From the NCBI RefSeq assembly GCF_017876395.1, contig NZ_JAGINX010000001.1, forward strand, positions 310,001 to 374,000: a stretch of DNA of 64,000 nt. Direction: 5' to 3'. The DNA is from Nesterenkonia lacusekhoensis. GTDB taxonomy: Bacteria > Actinomycetota > Actinomycetes > Actinomycetales > Micrococcaceae. Below the pieces are notes generated by a model. The model made no database searches. It worked only from the letters and a program-made list of their open reading frames with translations, and was not told the origin of the DNA. How positions within the stretch are numbered: position 1 is the first letter of the stretch; every line of letters begins with the position of its first letter. Of the stretch, positions 40,170-46,745 are shown one piece after another. Both the position numbers and the translations under genes were made by a program.

Positions 40170-40191
40170 TTTCTTCGAAAAAGCGAAGAAA
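40170..40191. promoter_or_regulatory. Candidate operator upstream of aceA
   Basis: TTTCTTCG (40170-40177) and CGAAGAAA (40184-40191) form a perfect inverted repeat with a six-base A-rich spacer. It lies about 100 bases upstream of the aceA start in the divergent region. A RamB-like regulator encoded nearby is a plausible binder, but the sequence is not a close match to the corynebacterial RamB motif. Confidence 0.45.
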
Positions 40192-40289
40192 TGCAGATCT
40201 TTCTTTGGATTGATGTGGATCAGGGGTTGAAGAGGGCGCAAAACTGGAAGAGCGCCAACCGCACGGTCCACGATTCGAAGGAGATTCTC

Positions 40290-41645
40290 ATGACCGAGAC
40301 GATCGCCCGCCCCGCCGCTGAACAGAACGGCACCGCTCCCCAGCCGGAGCCTCAGTCGGAGTTCCGCAGGAAGGTGGATGCTCTCCAGAAGGACTGGGAG
40401 ACCAGCCCCCGCTGGAAGAACATCACCCGCGACTACTCCGCTGCCGAGGTCATCAAGCTGCGCGGCACGGTGCAGGAGGAGAAGACCCTGGCCAAGCGCG
40501 GTGCGCAGAAGCTGTGGAAGCAGCTGACCGAGGAGCACGCCGCAGGGCGCTACACCAACTCGCTGGGCGCACTCTCCGGCAACCAGGCCGTGAACTACGT
40601 CAAAGGTGGCCTGCGTGCCATCTACCTCTCGGGCTGGCAGGTCGCCGGCGACGCGAACAACTCCGGCCACACCTACCCGGATCAGTCGCTGTATCCGGCC
40701 AACTCGGTGCCCACCGTGGTCCGGCGCATCAACAACGCCCTGATGCGTGCTGATCAGATCGAATACCTCGAAGGCATCCGCTCCGTGGATGACTATGTGG
40801 TCCCGATCGTCGCCGACGCCGAGGCCGGCTTCGGCGGTCCTCTCAACGCCTACGAGCTCATGAAGGCCATGATCGACGCCGGCGCCGCCGGGGTGCACTG
40901 GGAGGACCAGCTGGCCTCAGAGAAGAAGTGCGGGCATCTGGGCGGCAAGGTGCTCATCCCCACCAGTCAGCACATCCGCACGCTGCAGGCAGCACGTCTG
41001 GCCGCCGACGTCCACGACGTCGAGAGCCTGATCATCGCCCGCACCGATGCCGAGGCCGCCACGCTGATCACCTCAGACGTGGATGAGCGCGATCGGCCCT
41101 TCATCACCGGTGAGCGCACCGCTGAGGGCTTCTACAAGGTCACCAACGGCATCGAGCCCTGCATCGAGCGCGCCAAGGCCTACGCTCCGTACTCGGATCT
41201 GATCTGGATGGAGACCGGCACCCCGGACCTGGAGGCGGCACGTCAGTTCGCCGAGGCGGTGAAGGCCGAGTACCCGGACCAGATGTTGGCCTACAACTGC
41301 TCGCCCTCCTTCAACTGGAAGAAGCACCTCGACGACGAGACCATCGCCAAGTTCCAGAACGAGCTGGGCAAGATGGGCTTCACCTTCCAGTTCATCACCT
41401 TGGCAGGCTTCCACAGCCTCAACTACTCCGCCTTCAACCTGGCCAAGGGTTACAAGGAGGAGCAGATGAAGGCCTATGTGGAGCTGCAGGAGGCCGAGTT
41501 CGCCGCCGAGTCCGACGGCTACACCTCCACCAAGCACCAGCGTGAGGTCGGCACCGGCTACTTCGACGCCATCTCCACCACGCTGAACCCCGAGTCCTCC
41601 ACCACTGCGCTGAAGGGCTCCACCGAAGAAGGACAGTTCCACTGA
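40290..41645 (+). CDS. aceA: Isocitrate lyase
   Basis: A 451-residue isocitrate lyase. It begins [20 protein letters not shown], has the family block [20 protein letters not shown] and the catalytic [20 protein letters not shown], with the active cysteine in KKCGH. It splits isocitrate to glyoxylate and succinate, the first step of the glyoxylate shunt. The ATG follows GAAGGAG (40276-40282). The next gene in the operon, 44 bases on, looks like a shortened malate synthase and would not complete the shunt as it stands. Confidence 0.97.
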
Positions 41646-41689
41646 GTCGATGACTCAGGTGGACGGAATCTGACAAAGGAGTCGGAGAG

Positions 41690-42292
41690 ATGAACACCCC
41701 CAGCTCGATCACCATCAACGGCATCACACTGACCGGACCGCAGGCCCCGCGCCAGAACGAGGTCCTCACCGCAGATGTGCTGAGCTTCCTGGCCACGCTG
41801 CACCGTGAGTTCGGACCCCGGATCGAGGCGCTCGACGCCGTCGACGGTGCCTCCGACGAGGCGCTGGGAGAAGCTGAAGAGGTGGCCGCCTCCTGGTACG
41901 CGCTGATCGATAAGCAGCTGTCCGAGCCGCCGTGCACCTTCATCACCCCGCGCGGCCTGGCTCGGCCGGAAGGCCGCATCCTCTGTGAAGGTCAGCCGCT
42001 CTCGGCCGGCGTGGTGGACTTCGGTCTGCACATCTTCCGCAACGCGCGCACCCTGATAGCAGATGGCAGGGCGCCGTTCATCTCCCTGCTGGGCCTGGAG
42101 TCGGAGGAGGAGCTGCAGCTCTGGCAGGACCTCTTCATCCGGGCTGAGGAGCTGGCGGGTCTTCCCGACGGCACGATCCGGGCCATCCATCTGGGCCCGG
42201 GGGAGCCGGATCAGGACGATGACGAGGACGGCGATGCCAGCAGCGCAGCGGTGCTGACCGGAGCCAGTCGCCGCATGAGTGCCGCTGCCTGA
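41690..42292 (+). CDS. Malate synthase-like protein, truncated and lacking catalytic residues
   Basis: A 200-residue open frame after aceA, with an intact start (ATG after AAGGAG). Residues 17-50 (VLTADVLSFLATLHREFGPR) match the malate synthase A N terminus. Residues 82-165 (RGLARPEG, LCEGQPLSAGVVDFGLHIFR, LIADGRAPFISLLGLESEEE, LPDGTIRA) match the region following the active site in AceB. The part between, with the DFED metal-site region, is absent; the arginine that precedes RGL in AceB is threonine here (ITPRGL); and everything after residue 170, including the catalytic Asp, is missing. Normal AceB is about 530 residues. It is either a relic or a conserved non-catalytic derivative. Confidence 0.75.
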   Translation: MNTPSSITINGITLTGPQAPRQNEVLTADVLSFLATLHREFGPRIEALDAVDGASDEALGEAEEVAASWYALIDKQLSEPPCTFITPRGLARPEGRILCEGQPLSAGVVDFGLHIFRNARTLIADGRAPFISLLGLESEEELQLWQDLFIRAEELAGLPDGTIRAIHLGPGEPDQDDDEDGDASSAAVLTGASRRMSAAA

Positions 42293-42313
42293 CCCGGATT
42301 CACTCCGCAGACC

Positions 42314-42350
42314 ACCGCCGCCCAGGGTTCGAGGTCCCCTGGGCGGCGGT
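42314..42350. terminator. Bidirectional terminator between the aceA operon and the RamB-like gene
   Basis: A perfect 13-base stem, ACCGCCGCCCAGG (42314-42326) with its complement at 42338-42350, and an 11-base loop. CTTCT follows on the plus strand. It lies between two convergent genes and can serve both. Confidence 0.8.
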
Positions 42351-42387
42351 CTTCTGCGTTCCGCACTCATCCACGGGGAGGAGGCGT

Positions 42388-43857
42388 TCAGCCGGAGTGG
42401 CGTTGGAGGAACTCGTAGACCTCGCGGGTGTCCACACCGGGGAATGCTCCCTGGGGCATGGCGGCCAGAAGGTGCGTGTTGGCCCGCGCGGCCGGCCAGG
42501 CGTTGCCGTCCCAGGCTGAGGCCAGCTCGGGCGGGGGCTGCCGGCAGCAGGTGGGATCCTCCGGGCAGCCCGACTTCGACCGCGCGGGCGTGTCCCGCCC
42601 GCGGAACCACTTCACATGGTCAAAGGGCACCCCGATGCTCAGCGAATAGATCCCTGAGGAGTGCGCCTCCGTCCGCGCCGTGCACCAGAAGGTCCCGACG
42701 GCGGTGTCGGTGTATTGGTGGAAGGAACGGAACTTGTCCTCCACATCGAACACCTGCCGAGAGGTCCACTCCCGGCAGATGGTCTGACCCTCGATGGCCC
42801 CGGAATGATCAGCCGGGAAGTTTACGCCGTCGTTCTCATAGGCCTTATGGATGATCCCGGACTCGTGCACCTTCTGGAAGTGGCAGGTGATGCCCAGGTG
42901 TTCAGTGGCCAGATTCGTGAACCGATGGGCAGCCGACTCGTAGGAGACGGCGAAGGCATCGCGCAGGTCCTCGATGGCCAGCTCCTTGCGCTGCTTGGCC
43001 TGGCGGAGGAACTCCACCGTGGTGCGCTCGGGCATCAGCAGCGAGGCGGCGAAGTAGTTGGAGGAGACCCGTTGGCGCAGGAACGCGGAGTAGTCCTCCG
43101 GCTCGGTGTGGCCCAGGACCTCGTGGCCCAGGGCCTGGAGCAGAACGGAGCGTGCGTCCCAGTCTCGGGAGCGCCCTTGGGTCAGGTAGATGATTCTGTT
43201 GCGCTGATCGGTCACCGATCGGGTGGAGTTGGGCAGGTTCGGCACGAACCGCAGTGAGTACCCCAGATGTTCGGCGATATCGGCGGCCACATGGTGGGAG
43301 AGCGGTCCGGAGGTGTGCCCGACGGCGTCGAGCAGCTCCTGGGCGGCCGCCTCGATCTCCGGATAGTAGTTGTTCTTCTGACGCATCTCCTCGCGCAGCT
43401 CCGTGTTGGCCCGCCGGGCCTCCTCCGGAGTGGCCGCCTGCTCCTCGAGGCGGCGGCGCAGCTCCCGCTGCAGCGAGACCAGAGATTCCAAGACGTCCAT
43501 GGGCAGGCGGTTGCTGATGCGCACAGCGGGCAGCCCCAGGGCGGCGTAGAGGGGACCGCGCTGGGCCTTCTCCAGCTCGATCTCCAGGGCGGCCCGCCTG
43601 GACGGAGGCTCTGCGCCGAAGAGATCGTCCAAGGTGACGCCGAAGGTCTTCGCCAGCTGATTGAGCTGAGAGAGCTTGGGTTCGCGCTTGCCGTTCTCCA
43701 GCAGGGACAGCTGGGAGGGGGCGGTCTCCAGGGCGGCGGCCAGGTCGTCCAGTGTCATGCCGGCGCGCTTGCGCAGGTGTCTGACCCTGCGGCCCAGAGC
43801 GATGAGGTCGATCTCGTCCTCAGAGTCCTCCGCCGGGAGCGCCTGTGCCGTCCGCAT
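42388..43857 (-). CDS. ramB: RamB/ScfR-family regulator (XRE helix-turn-helix with IrrE-like domain)
   Basis: A 489-residue protein. Residues about 20-75 are an XRE helix-turn-helix (RHLRKRAGMTLDDLAAALET, then LSLLENGKREPKLSQLNQLA). The middle contains an ImmA/IrrE-like region with LGHEVLGH near residue 240. The C-terminal half matches the short-chain fatty acyl regulator domain (HFQKVHESGIIHKAYENDGV) and has a cysteine cluster (CPEDPTCC) near 430. RamB represses isocitrate lyase and acetate genes in corynebacteria; here it lies convergent to aceA. The ATG is five bases after GGAGG. The divergent citrate transporter may also be a target. Confidence 0.85.
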   Translation of the reverse strand: MRTAQALPAEDSEDEIDLIALGRRVRHLRKRAGMTLDDLAAALETAPSQLSLLENGKREPKLSQLNQLAKTFGVTLDDLFGAEPPSRRAALEIELEKAQRGPLYAALGLPAVRISNRLPMDVLESLVSLQRELRRRLEEQAATPEEARRANTELREEMRQKNNYYPEIEAAAQELLDAVGHTSGPLSHHVAADIAEHLGYSLRFVPNLPNSTRSVTDQRNRIIYLTQGRSRDWDARSVLLQALGHEVLGHTEPEDYSAFLRQRVSSNYFAASLLMPERTTVEFLRQAKQRKELAIEDLRDAFAVSYESAAHRFTNLATEHLGITCHFQKVHESGIIHKAYENDGVNFPADHSGAIEGQTICREWTSRQVFDVEDKFRSFHQYTDTAVGTFWCTARTEAHSSGIYSLSIGVPFDHVKWFRGRDTPARSKSGCPEDPTCCRQPPPELASAWDGNAWPAARANTHLLAAMPQGAFPGVDTREVYEFLQRHSG

Positions 43858-44034
43858 AGTCCTCCATTCTAGGACAGTCCGCCCGCCCTGTGACGCCCCT
43901 CATATGATGATCGAAATGTGCACGAATGTGATCCAGTATATAAGGTGTGATGCGGCTCGCAGGCCGGAGTGTCCCGTCACCCCGTGCTGATGAGCCGCAC
44001 GATCTGGCAAATGGACGTAAGGGAGCGCCCGCTC

Positions 44035-45408
44035 ATGGACGAGCCGTCAACACTGCTGACCCTCGGTGGTCTGGGAATCATCGCCGTCACCGTCGGCCTG
44101 CTGATGTGGAACAAAGTCTCCCCGGTGGTGGCCATGGTGGTCACCCCCATCGTGGGAGCGCTGCTGGTCGGCTTCGGCCTGAGCGAGATCACGGAGTTCT
44201 TCGACGCCGGCGTCTCCCAGGTGATGAACGTCGTCGTGATGTTCATCTTTGCGATCCTCTTCTTCGGGATCCTCACCGACGCCGGGCTCTTCGACCCTGT
44301 GGTCCGGGCGCTGATCCTGGCCACACGCGGAAAAGTCGTGCTGGTGACCGTGGGCACTGCGCTGATCGGCGTGGTGGCGCATGTCGACGGTGCCGGAGCG
44401 ACCACCTTCCTGCTCACCGTGCCGGCTCTGCTGCCGCTGTATCAGGCGCTGCACATGAGCCGGTACCTGCTGCTCCTGCTGTTGGCCATCTCTGCCGGCA
44501 TCGTGAACATGATCCCCTGGGGCGGGCCGCTGGGCCGCGCCGCCTCCGTGCAGGGCATCGATCCGGTGGAGCTGTACCGTCCGCTGATCCCGCTGCAGAT
44601 CGTGGGCATCGTGCTGATCCTGATATTCGCGGTGCTGCTGGGTCTGCGTGAGACCCGGCGCATCAACCGGCGGGTCGCCGCCGGCGAGATCGAGGTTCCC
44701 GAGGACGTGGACGTCCGCGGCATCGCCGATGACTTCAGCCGCCGTCAGCGCGAGGAGCGGGCCGACATCGTCGAGAAGATGAACTCGGCGCGGTGGGTCT
44801 ACTGGGCCAACGTGGTGCTGGCACTGGGTGTCATCGCGCTCATGCTTGCTGACATCCTGCCGCCGCAGTTCGCCTTCATGCTCGGTGTGGCCATCGCCCT
44901 TCCGCTGAACTTCAAGGGATCGAACCTGCAGATGGAGCGCATCCGCGCCCATGCTCCCAATGCTCTGATGATGGGCGCCGTCATCCTGGCCGCCGCGGTC
45001 TTCCTGGGCGTGCTCAATGAGTCCGAGATGCTCGAATCGGTCGCTCTGTCCACCCTGGCCGTGCTGCCCGAGGGGCTGGGCCCCAACCTGCATCTGGCCA
45101 TGGGAGTCCTGGGTGTTCCGATGGACCTGCTCACCTCCACCGATGCGTACTACTTCTCCGTGCTGCCCCTGGTGGACGCCACGGCCGGTCAGTTCGGCAC
45201 CGGCCCCATGGAGATCGCCCACGGCATGCTGGTCGGCAACATCATCGGCACCTTCGTCAGCCCGTTCTCGCCGGCGCTGTGGCTGGCTCTGGGGCTCTCC
45301 GGAGCAAACCTGGGCTCTCATCTGCGCTACTCGTTCTTCATCATCTGGGGCTTCTCGATCCTGATGATGCTCGCCGCTCTGGCTCTGGGGATCTTCTCCA
45401 TCCATTAG
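44035..45408 (+). CDS. CitMHS-family citrate/divalent cation symporter
   Basis: A 457-residue transporter with about 12 hydrophobic segments. CitMHS motifs are HVDGAGATTFLLTVPALLPL in the first half, NMIPWGGPLGRAASVQGIDP after it, and LTSTDAYYFSVLPLVDATAG in the second half. Family members take up citrate as a complex with Mg2+ or Ca2+. The ATG at 44035 is chosen because AAGGGAG (44018-44024) precedes it. The divergent RamB-like gene is 177 bases upstream, so a common regulatory region is likely. An insertion sequence begins 14 bases after the stop. Confidence 0.88.
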   Translation: MDEPSTLLTLGGLGIIAVTVGLLMWNKVSPVVAMVVTPIVGALLVGFGLSEITEFFDAGVSQVMNVVVMFIFAILFFGILTDAGLFDPVVRALILATRGKVVLVTVGTALIGVVAHVDGAGATTFLLTVPALLPLYQALHMSRYLLLLLLAISAGIVNMIPWGGPLGRAASVQGIDPVELYRPLIPLQIVGIVLILIFAVLLGLRETRRINRRVAAGEIEVPEDVDVRGIADDFSRRQREERADIVEKMNSARWVYWANVVLALGVIALMLADILPPQFAFMLGVAIALPLNFKGSNLQMERIRAHAPNALMMGAVILAAAVFLGVLNESEMLESVALSTLAVLPEGLGPNLHLAMGVLGVPMDLLTSTDAYYFSVLPLVDATAGQFGTGPMEIAHGMLVGNIIGTFVSPFSPALWLALGLSGANLGSHLRYSFFIIWGFSILMMLAALALGIFSIH

Positions 45409-45480: not shown

Positions 45481-45798
45481 ATGGGTAGACCACCCTCGAT
45501 TCCGGCGGAGAAGAAGACCCGGATAGTGCTGAGCGTGCTGGCCGGCGAGATGTCCATCGCCGAAGCGGCACGCAAGGAGAAAGTCAGTGAGCAGTCCATC
45601 GGACGGTGGAAGGCCGAGTTCCTGGAAGCCGGCAAGACCGCCCTGGTGGCCGGCAGGTCCGGACCATCCTCCCGAGAGGAACAGCTGGAGGCCGAGGTCG
45701 CCGAGCTGACCCAGGCCTTGGGCGAGGCACACCTGGAAGCCAGGGTGTGGAAGAAGTCCGCGGAGGGCCGGCTGGGCCCTTCGAGGACCTCGAGGTGA
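45481..45798 (+). CDS. IS3-like OrfA, helix-turn-helix protein
   Basis: A 105-residue protein of the insertion sequence. The N-terminal part is a helix-turn-helix (IVLSVLAGEMSIAEAARKEK, then VSEQSIGRWKAEFLEAG), followed by a leucine-rich coiled region (EEQLEAEVAELTQALGEAHL). OrfA binds the element ends and cooperates with OrfB. The stop overlaps the OrfB start by GTGA, and OrfB is in the -1 frame. I see no A6G-type slippery heptamer, so coupling by overlap is the simpler reading. Confidence 0.88.
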   Translation: MGRPPSIPAEKKTRIVLSVLAGEMSIAEAARKEKVSEQSIGRWKAEFLEAGKTALVAGRSGPSSREEQLEAEVAELTQALGEAHLEARVWKKSAEGRLGPSRTSR

Positions 45799-46745
45799 TC
45801 CGCGTGGAAGCGGGCATGTCGACCGCGAGGTTCTGCCAGCTCTTCGACATGCCCGAGCGGACCTGGCGCCGCTGGCAGGCCAAGGCCCGCACCGGGACGG
45901 CGGTGAAGGGACCGTGGCCGCAACCGGGACGGCAGGCCGCCAGGGAACTGGTGGTCAAGCACGCGCTGGCCCATCCGGCGTGGGGGCATCGGAAGATCTG
46001 GGCAATGGTCCGCCACGACGGGCATGTGGTTTCCGAGGCGACCGTGCTGCGAATCCTGCGCGACGAGGGGCTGATTCTGCCCGCGCAGTACCAACGGGAG
46101 CGACGGAAGCTGGCCGAGCGGCGCAAGGCCGCGTTCGCCACCGAGCCCTCAGGCCCGAACCAAGTCTGGCAGCTGGACTTCAGCGAGTTCGAGACCACCA
46201 CCGGAGGGACCTGGCGGCTGGCCGGGTGCCGGGACTACTGGTCCAAGTACGAGCACCCCTTCCACGTTTCGCCCACCGGGAACCAGCACGACGCGATCGA
46301 CGCGATCGAGTTGGCCCTGGCCGACTACGAGGCCATGTTCGGTCACCCGCTGGTCGAGGCCTGCCCGGTCGATCCCGAGACCGGTGAGCTGTTGCCCGTG
46401 GTGACCATCGTGACGGACAACGGCGGGCCGTTCCGGTCCTTCCGCTTCGAGTCCTTCATCGCCGCCCACCCCGAGCTACACCACGTGCGCACCCGAGTGA
46501 AGACCCCGGGGCAGAACGGGTCCCGTGAACGCGGCTTCGGCACGCTGAAGTACGAACGGCTCTACCTGGACGAGATCGACGACGCGATCGTGCTCGCCGA
46601 GCGGGCCGAGGACTACCGGATCGAGTACAACGAGCTCCGGCCCCACGAGGCCATCTCATGGAACCGGCCCAAGGAGGTGCACCTGGGCCTGGCCGACCCC
46701 ACCACCCCGACATTCAAAACCAAGGAAATCCTGCCAACTACTTGA
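45795..46745 (+). CDS. IS3-like OrfB, DDE transposase
   Basis: A 316-residue transposase with an N-terminal HTH-21-like region (HPAWGHRKIWAMVRHDGHVV) and an rve/DDE core. The first catalytic aspartate is in VWQLDFSEFET, the second in IVTDNGGPF and the glutamate in GSRERGFGTLKYERLYLDE. The ORF stays open upstream to 45606, so a fused OrfAB by frameshifting is possible; the start used here is GTG 45795, which overlaps the OrfA stop. The TGA stop lies inside the right terminal repeat. Confidence 0.9.
   Translation: MIRVEAGMSTARFCQLFDMPERTWRRWQAKARTGTAVKGPWPQPGRQAARELVVKHALAHPAWGHRKIWAMVRHDGHVVSEATVLRILRDEGLILPAQYQRERRKLAERRKAAFATEPSGPNQVWQLDFSEFETTTGGTWRLAGCRDYWSKYEHPFHVSPTGNQHDAIDAIELALADYEAMFGHPLVEACPVDPETGELLPVVTIVTDNGGPFRSFRFESFIAAHPELHHVRTRVKTPGQNGSRERGFGTLKYERLYLDEIDDAIVLAERAEDYRIEYNELRPHEAISWNRPKEVHLGLADPTTPTFKTKEILPTT

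Follow-up and report, generated by a model that had tools for sequence, protein, structure and literature searches.

A shortened malate synthase homologue kept with isocitrate lyase in most Nesterenkonia genomes examined suggests a non-enzymatic role in acetate metabolism

Why would a bacterium keep one third of an enzyme next to the gene of another enzyme of the same pathway? The question is raised by a locus of Nesterenkonia lacusekhoensis, where the isocitrate lyase gene aceA (40290..41645, forward strand; NF011645, 765.6 bits against a cut-off of 562) is followed after 44 nt by a gene for a protein of 200 residues that is derived from malate synthase and lacks its catalytic residues according to Pfam and NCBIfam profiles, alignment and structure models. 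We call this gene mini-aceB (41690..42292, forward strand). It lies in a window of 64,000 nucleotides, the whole stretch of DNA that was analysed, from a genome of 2.74 Mb. A preliminary description had left it as a “pseudoenzyme or relic”, and had pointed out that its start, Shine-Dalgarno site and frame are intact and its codon use normal. These observations hold: the frame runs from an ATG to a TGA behind an AAAGGAG at 41675..41681 on the forward strand, and its GC content by codon position (0.715/0.49/0.835) shows an ordinary coding bias. The same AAAGGAG precedes the start in 18 of the 26 copies of the short form described below.

In its make-up, mini-AceB joins the first 50 or so residues of malate synthase A to a barrel segment of about 85 residues, much as the preliminary description had it when it spoke of an N-terminal segment joined to the RGL...TIRA region. 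The Pfam domain MS_N covers residues 12-45 (28.9 bits, cut-off 23.5), MS_TIM-barrel covers residues 84-165 (58.3 bits, cut-off 26.4), which correspond to profile positions 3-84 of 248, and a tail takes up residues 170-200. A complete TIM barrel is thus absent, with 82 of 248 barrel positions present and few strands in the models, and the NCBIfam profile for malate synthase A (TIGR01344) gives 80.4 bits, below the whole-protein equivalog cut-off of 594.5. At E <= 0.001, MS_TIM-barrel and TIGR01344 match all 26 short forms and MS_N matches 25 of them. Judged by these profiles, mini-AceB is of common descent with malate synthase A.

The missing parts include the catalytic centre. The stretch between the anchors L48 and P87 measures 30-47 residues (median 39) in the short forms and 123-125 in the full-length enzymes linked to aceA, so that some 85 residues net have been lost internally. 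The arginine of the V-R-P-R-G motif, which we take to be the catalytic arginine, aligns with Thr86 of mini-AceB. The threonine had been noted before, yet across the 26 short forms this position holds T in 13, S in nine, C in one and still R in three (G002, G008 and G013b). Past ...TIRA the alignment has no recognisable counterpart of the full-length enzymes, as expected from the earlier remark that the C-terminal half is gone. The metal ligands and the catalytic aspartate, which presumably sit in the later barrel and C-terminal part of malate synthase, likewise have no recognisable counterpart in the aligned short forms.

What remains still resembles the enzyme. Two single-chain AlphaFold2 models of short forms (pLDDT 78.6 and 83.2) agree with each other and predict, in order, an N-terminal hairpin, a long helix, short helices, a strand, a hairpin, a helix, a strand, a helix, a strand and a poorly predicted tail. 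The only PDB fold matches at E <= 0.001, for both models, are malate synthase A structures (3cux, 3cuz and two chains of 3cv2), with TM-scores of 0.58-0.69 by query length and an rmsd of 7-11 Å, so that the arrangement of the parts differs somewhat from that in the enzyme. The residues themselves were compared between the 26 short forms and 35 malate synthases, in the numbering of the short form. Positions R86, W90, H91, Y132, K135 and T166 are invariant or nearly so in the malate synthases and are replaced in most or all of the short forms; F33, L37, H38, W69, P87, D110, P129, E141, W145, F149 and A165 are retained. The short forms have also acquired a pattern of their own, with R21, L90, A128, E139 and I166 fixed in all 26 and R92 in 24, at positions where most malate synthases differ. 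The tail carries a DDDEDG motif in 11 of the 26 copies, in mini-AceB within residues 172-189, where the structure model is unsure; a DxDxDG pattern resembles a calcium loop.

The preliminary description had proposed looking for the 200-residue form in relatives, and it is found widely in the genus. Among 58 genomes, 30 belong to Nesterenkonia (G000-G029, where G000 is the source genome), and 24 of these 30 hold an intact short form, 26 copies in total. The copy nearest to mini-AceB (93%) is that of G019. N. massiliensis (G013; L034, L035 and L036) has three copies; two aceA genes are each followed by a diverged mini-aceB, and the third mini-aceB lies elsewhere. In G016 the short gene is broken, which may be an assembly error, since aceA is split in the same assembly. 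In G024 and G028 the place behind aceA is taken by a full-length-type aceB, G007 and G025 (65% and 82% complete) have neither the short form nor an aceA match, and G003 has no short form; among the genomes at least 90% complete it alone lacks both the short form and an aceA-linked full-length aceB2.

Outside the genus, scans of the family (245 genomes) and of the order (297 genomes) had no open frame under 300 aa among the matches listed, the smallest being 337. A scan of 84,980 species genomes returned 71 loci, 48 with long frames and 23 with frames under 300 aa; it used patterns derived from the short form, so a malate synthase shortened independently elsewhere could be missed. Of the 23 short frames, 22 are from Nesterenkonia/Garicola, including the broken N. 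pannonica copy of G016 (L092). The remaining one, from Arthrobacter sp. Hiyo8 (L136), was rejected as a true short form, being a full-length enzyme spread over three frames.

Is this wide presence due to selection? An estimate of dN/dS, also proposed beforehand, gave 0.040-0.259 (NG86) for mini-aceB in 19 of 19 pairs, which were chosen out of 325 possible ones. In the 17 of these pairs for which both genes were at hand, aceA gave 0.006-0.118; mini-aceB thus evolves faster than aceA, yet far under neutrality. By segment (11 pairs), dN/dS is 0.21 for residues 1-50, 0.26 for 51-80, 0.10 for 81-168 and 0.27 for 169-200, so that the constraint outside residues 81-168 is moderate. The low values argue for selection at the protein level, as opposed to a purely RNA or leader role. 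The openness of the frame was not relied on as a test of selection, as it is a weak one in GC-rich DNA: in neutral simulations with 0.28 changes per site the frame stayed open in 727 or 1803 of 5000 runs, depending on the base composition used.

These results also settle most of what had been left between two terms. The marks of a pseudogene would be broken frames, dN/dS near 1 and patchy survival; what we see is one broken copy (G016) against 26 intact ones. Two marks of a pseudoenzyme, homology to an enzyme without its catalytic residues and upkeep as a protein by selection, are seen in mini-AceB, by alignment and by the dN/dS of all 19 chosen pairs; its non-catalytic function is putative. 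The “pseudoenzyme” half of the earlier wording is therefore supported, with the catalytic centre lost in one clade, and the “relic” half is not. The outcome that the preliminary description had named as speaking against its reading, no homologues together with neutral decay, is the opposite of what was found, namely intact copies of one origin under purifying selection; its own view that the intact features argue against simple decay is borne out.

The origin of the short form was followed in trees. A midpoint-rooted tree of malate synthases was built from shared columns with 61 rows (26 short forms, seven aceA-linked full-length AceB2 and 28 AceB1-type sequences; neither the broken G016 rows nor the AceB1 of G015 were included). 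In this tree a single branch, supported at 100/100, divides the short forms from all other rows. The aceA tree joins G024 to the species that have a short form (100/97) and places it outside them by a weak branch (86/31); G028, G030 and G032 are outside the short-form group. G024 is thus the nearest lineage, and it has a full-length-type aceB in the very position of mini-aceB. mini-AceB arose by shortening of an aceA-linked type of malate synthase that is still encoded after aceA in related lineages, and the simplest account of the trees is one shortening event near the split of G024. When the malate synthase tree is rooted at its midpoint, the three copies that keep the arginine sit on side branches that split off early within the short clade, suggesting that the shortening came first and the catalytic arginine was lost later. 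The G024 gene (L059:3991-5621) has a frame change near its C-terminus, with the C-terminal part in another frame, and a genome search of G024 found no AceB1.

Who then makes malate? The preliminary description had asked for an intact malate synthase in the same genome, and there is one: a complete AceB1 that scores 715.5 bits against the malate synthase A cut-off of 594.5, with its barrel domain match at G000:C1:9517-10257 and its gene adjoining an IclR-type regulator gene. Of the 24 genomes that hold a short form, 23 also have AceB1, and the remaining one, G005, is 79% complete. As far as gene content tells, the enzyme role is covered by this second, full-length enzyme, and a loss of the glyoxylate shunt is not supported.

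The most telling evidence on the function of mini-AceB comes from the DNA in front of these genes. Upstream of aceA, with its end 87 nt before the aceA start, lies a putative operator, TTCTTCG-N5-GCGAAGAA-N-TGCA-N-ATCTTT (40171..40202, forward strand), which agrees with the consensus at 25 of 25 positions and is the only site in the source genome at three mismatches or fewer. We infer that it is a working operator. A hand-made first motif, GCAAAACT, led nowhere. A 32-nt matrix was built from 23 aceA sites, leaving out of the training the aceA of G028, G030 and G032 and of the four genomes that have only a separated copy of mini-aceB. The aceA sites of those four genomes score 41.2-50.9. The aceA genes of G028, which is of the same genus and has a full-length aceB2, and of the outgroups G030 and G032 have no site (best scores 0.4, 5.3 and -13.1, respectively), and the site is thus not a general feature of aceA.

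mini-aceB directly follows aceA in 21 of the 26 copies, and is separated from it in five (G001, G012, G014, G029 and G013c). All five separated genes have the site, which scores 30.8-36.3 and begins 120-182 nt before the start; the best score outside the control regions of aceA and mini-aceB is 9.5 among 1,291,204 positions scanned (the window, L001-L070 and L142-L171, both strands, some overlapping). All 26 copies therefore belong to an aceA operon or have an aceA-type site of their own in front. A genome-wide pattern at three mismatches or fewer found 27 sites in 25 of the 30 genus genomes, assigned by coordinates to aceA (25 sites upstream) and to separated mini-aceB genes (two), with none elsewhere, and the reversed control pattern found 0 in the same scan. 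As the pattern was derived from the same sites, and misses three of the five separated mini-aceB sites, this is a test of specificity and not of discovery.

The separated copies also tell how they came about. Four of the five, which form one clade in the malate synthase tree, carry the leader AATCAAAGGAGATTC found before the aceA of G001, G029, G014 and G013a, and begin with MTIT..ET, a start that two of these aceA genes (G029 and G014) share and the other two (G001 and G013a) do not. For this reason, and as MTIT also opens some AceB1, the first codons alone are not decisive; together with leader and operator, they make it most likely that these four copies arose when mini-aceB was fused in frame to the start of aceA. 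The fifth, in G012, has a leader of the linked type behind the operator. mini-aceB has thus parted from aceA at least twice and kept the aceA-type site each time, a point that goes beyond the preliminary description. Matches to remnants of a short gene next to the aceA genes left behind were weak (E 0.01 or more) and were taken as chance. In three species the separated copy lies among phenylacetate-degradation genes (L079:997-8015, L088:2702-11360 and L091:2-12415), identified by domains as PaaZ-like, PaaA/PaaC and PaaE-like, and this neighbourhood may mark merely one relocation. In N. sedimenti it lies between GMC oxidoreductase and amidase genes.

The AceB1 loci fetched from the genus have no site above 8, with the exception of G003 (one locus, L169, comprises no upstream DNA). 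In G003, the genome without a short form, AceB1 and aceA diverge across the operator.

On the other side of mini-aceB, a strong GC-rich hairpin of 14 pairs (42314..42350, forward strand) follows the gene, and 42293-42365 folds at -45 kcal/mol (z = -6.4). A textbook terminator was rejected, there being no T run, and a pattern scan gave no terminator-like match on the forward strand; it is possible that the hairpin marks the end of the aceA-mini-aceB transcript. Beyond it, a convergent regulator gene (42388..43857, reverse strand) with HTH_3 and Peptidase_M78/ImmA-IrrE domains is RamB-like, and homologues occur within the few kb fetched in many, though not all, of the loci of relatives. The aceA-type site is perhaps the binding site of this RamB-like regulator. 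Compared with the published RamB motif AA/GAACTTTGCAAA, as given in the accessible part of PMC4448153, the site is at best similar. A CitMHS-type transporter gene (43969-45408) lies near the aceA operon, with relatives in five other fetched short-form loci, and a transposase-like frame (45606-46745; HTH_21 and rve_3 integrase core) stands between it and ABC transporter genes.

We regard it as practically certain that mini-AceB is a conserved, shortened protein of one origin, with no catalytic centre, kept by purifying selection, tied to an aceA-type site and leaving catalysis to AceB1. As to what it does, we favour, with modest confidence, a role without catalysis, as a partner or regulator of isocitrate lyase, malate synthase or both, with its expression tied to that of aceA. 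The strongest hint is the retention of the aceA-type site through the separations, and a second strong one, although a single case, is the AceB1 of G003 that sits at the aceA operator. The mechanism itself, a non-catalytic partner of the glyoxylate shunt, is more tentative and its chances fall a little short of even: mini-AceB would be made in step with isocitrate lyase, would bind AceA and/or AceB1 through the retained clasp helix and the surface of the barrel segment, and would tune, stabilise or tether them, so that AceB1, which is controlled separately, could be matched to the output of AceA. Co-regulation with aceA does not prove a physical partnership. A more specific version, in which mini-AceB keeps an ancestral contact surface between malate synthase and isocitrate lyase, couples AceB1 through it, and was lost where AceB1 came under the aceA operator, is doubtful. 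A review (PMC7764121) reports that in Nesterenkonia sp. AN1 the transcripts of isocitrate lyase and malate synthase are up at 5 °C; its accessible part leaves the malate synthase gene unspecified.

The site pattern, found at three mismatches or fewer only upstream of aceA and mini-aceB across 30 genomes, would also fit a regulator of expression or a sensor of small molecules that, by binding the RamB-like regulator or a metabolite of the shunt, acts back on the aceA operator. We consider this unlikely. Most of the known malate synthase active site lies in the later barrel and C-terminal part, which are missing, and Pfam finds no DNA-binding domain, while in its favour the RamB-like gene adjoins the operon and the Paracoccus RamB binds CoA esters, according to the accessible part of PMC10370305. 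It is rather improbable that mini-AceB took up an unrelated function, for instance by forming half-barrel homodimers that carry a new active site, or by binding metal through the acidic tail. The exchange of residues invariant in malate synthases for other fixed residues, the DDDEDG tails and the three copies in G013 would agree with such a change, but the tail is neither universal nor confidently modelled, and an unrelated role sits poorly with the fact that all 26 copies share either the operon of aceA or its type of control site.

That the gene is a relic in decay, or a product of faulty assembly, is very improbable indeed. About two thirds of the enzyme is missing, the copy in G016 is broken, G003 has lost the short form, and an open frame is weak evidence in such GC-rich DNA; against this, dN/dS is low, the intact copies form one clade, and the gene was kept when it parted from aceA together with the operator, while the break in G016, where aceA is split too, is itself possibly an error of assembly. 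That mini-AceB is one subunit of a split malate synthase, with the C-terminal half supplied by another gene, can practically be dismissed, since the N-terminal part of the fold is kept but about 85 internal residues are lost as well, and the only other barrel match in the genome is the complete AceB1 (a C-terminal half free of barrel would escape this search).

mini-AceB is a case, of a single origin, of an enzyme cut down to a stand-alone fragment and then retained, apparently for a non-enzymatic role; its long retention in most Nesterenkonia genomes examined, under control shared with isocitrate lyase, suggests a new job of this kind in acetate metabolism. A series for comparison is at hand, from the full-length relative in G024 and the outgroups, through early forms that keep the arginine, to later forms without it and the separations from aceA. 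Should mini-AceB prove to bind AceA or AceB1, this would reveal how cells bring isocitrate lyase and malate synthase into proportion, and whether these two come into physical contact; mini-AceB would then also be a naturally selected part of a TIM barrel, perhaps one able to fold by itself. For annotation, a Nesterenkonia gene in the aceA operon that looks like a short “malate synthase” should not be read as coding for the enzyme.

We did not find mini-AceB described in the literature on Nesterenkonia, truncated malate synthases, pseudoenzymes and half-barrels that was searched, a coverage to which most subscription papers do not belong, and within it we found no precedent for a TIM-barrel enzyme whose remaining third is retained by most of a genus and linked to the control site of a partner enzyme. 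Dead paralogues that act as regulators are a known kind. Among them are HisZ and the AdoMet decarboxylase prozyme, catalytically dead regulatory paralogues of enzymes that keep most of the enzyme fold. Like these, mini-AceB is a conserved enzyme homologue without catalytic residues, controlled together with its pathway; unlike them, it keeps a helix region and few strands of an eight-stranded barrel, and its partner is putative. To malate synthase A (AceB; TIGR01344, PF01274 and PF20656; 3cux, 3cuz and 3cv2) the short forms are clearly homologous, but the four full-length proteins scanned have 533-576 residues and the enzyme has a full barrel, in contrast to 200 residues, 82 of 248 barrel positions and no catalytic centre in mini-AceB. 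Fragments of TIM barrels are treated in a review (PMC8250049), whose accessible part covers engineered half-barrels, a domain swap, and splice variants in humans that presumably assemble with partners. mini-AceB resembles these in being an isolated piece of a (beta-alpha)8 barrel, and differs from the cases in that part of the review in being a separate bacterial gene under selection.
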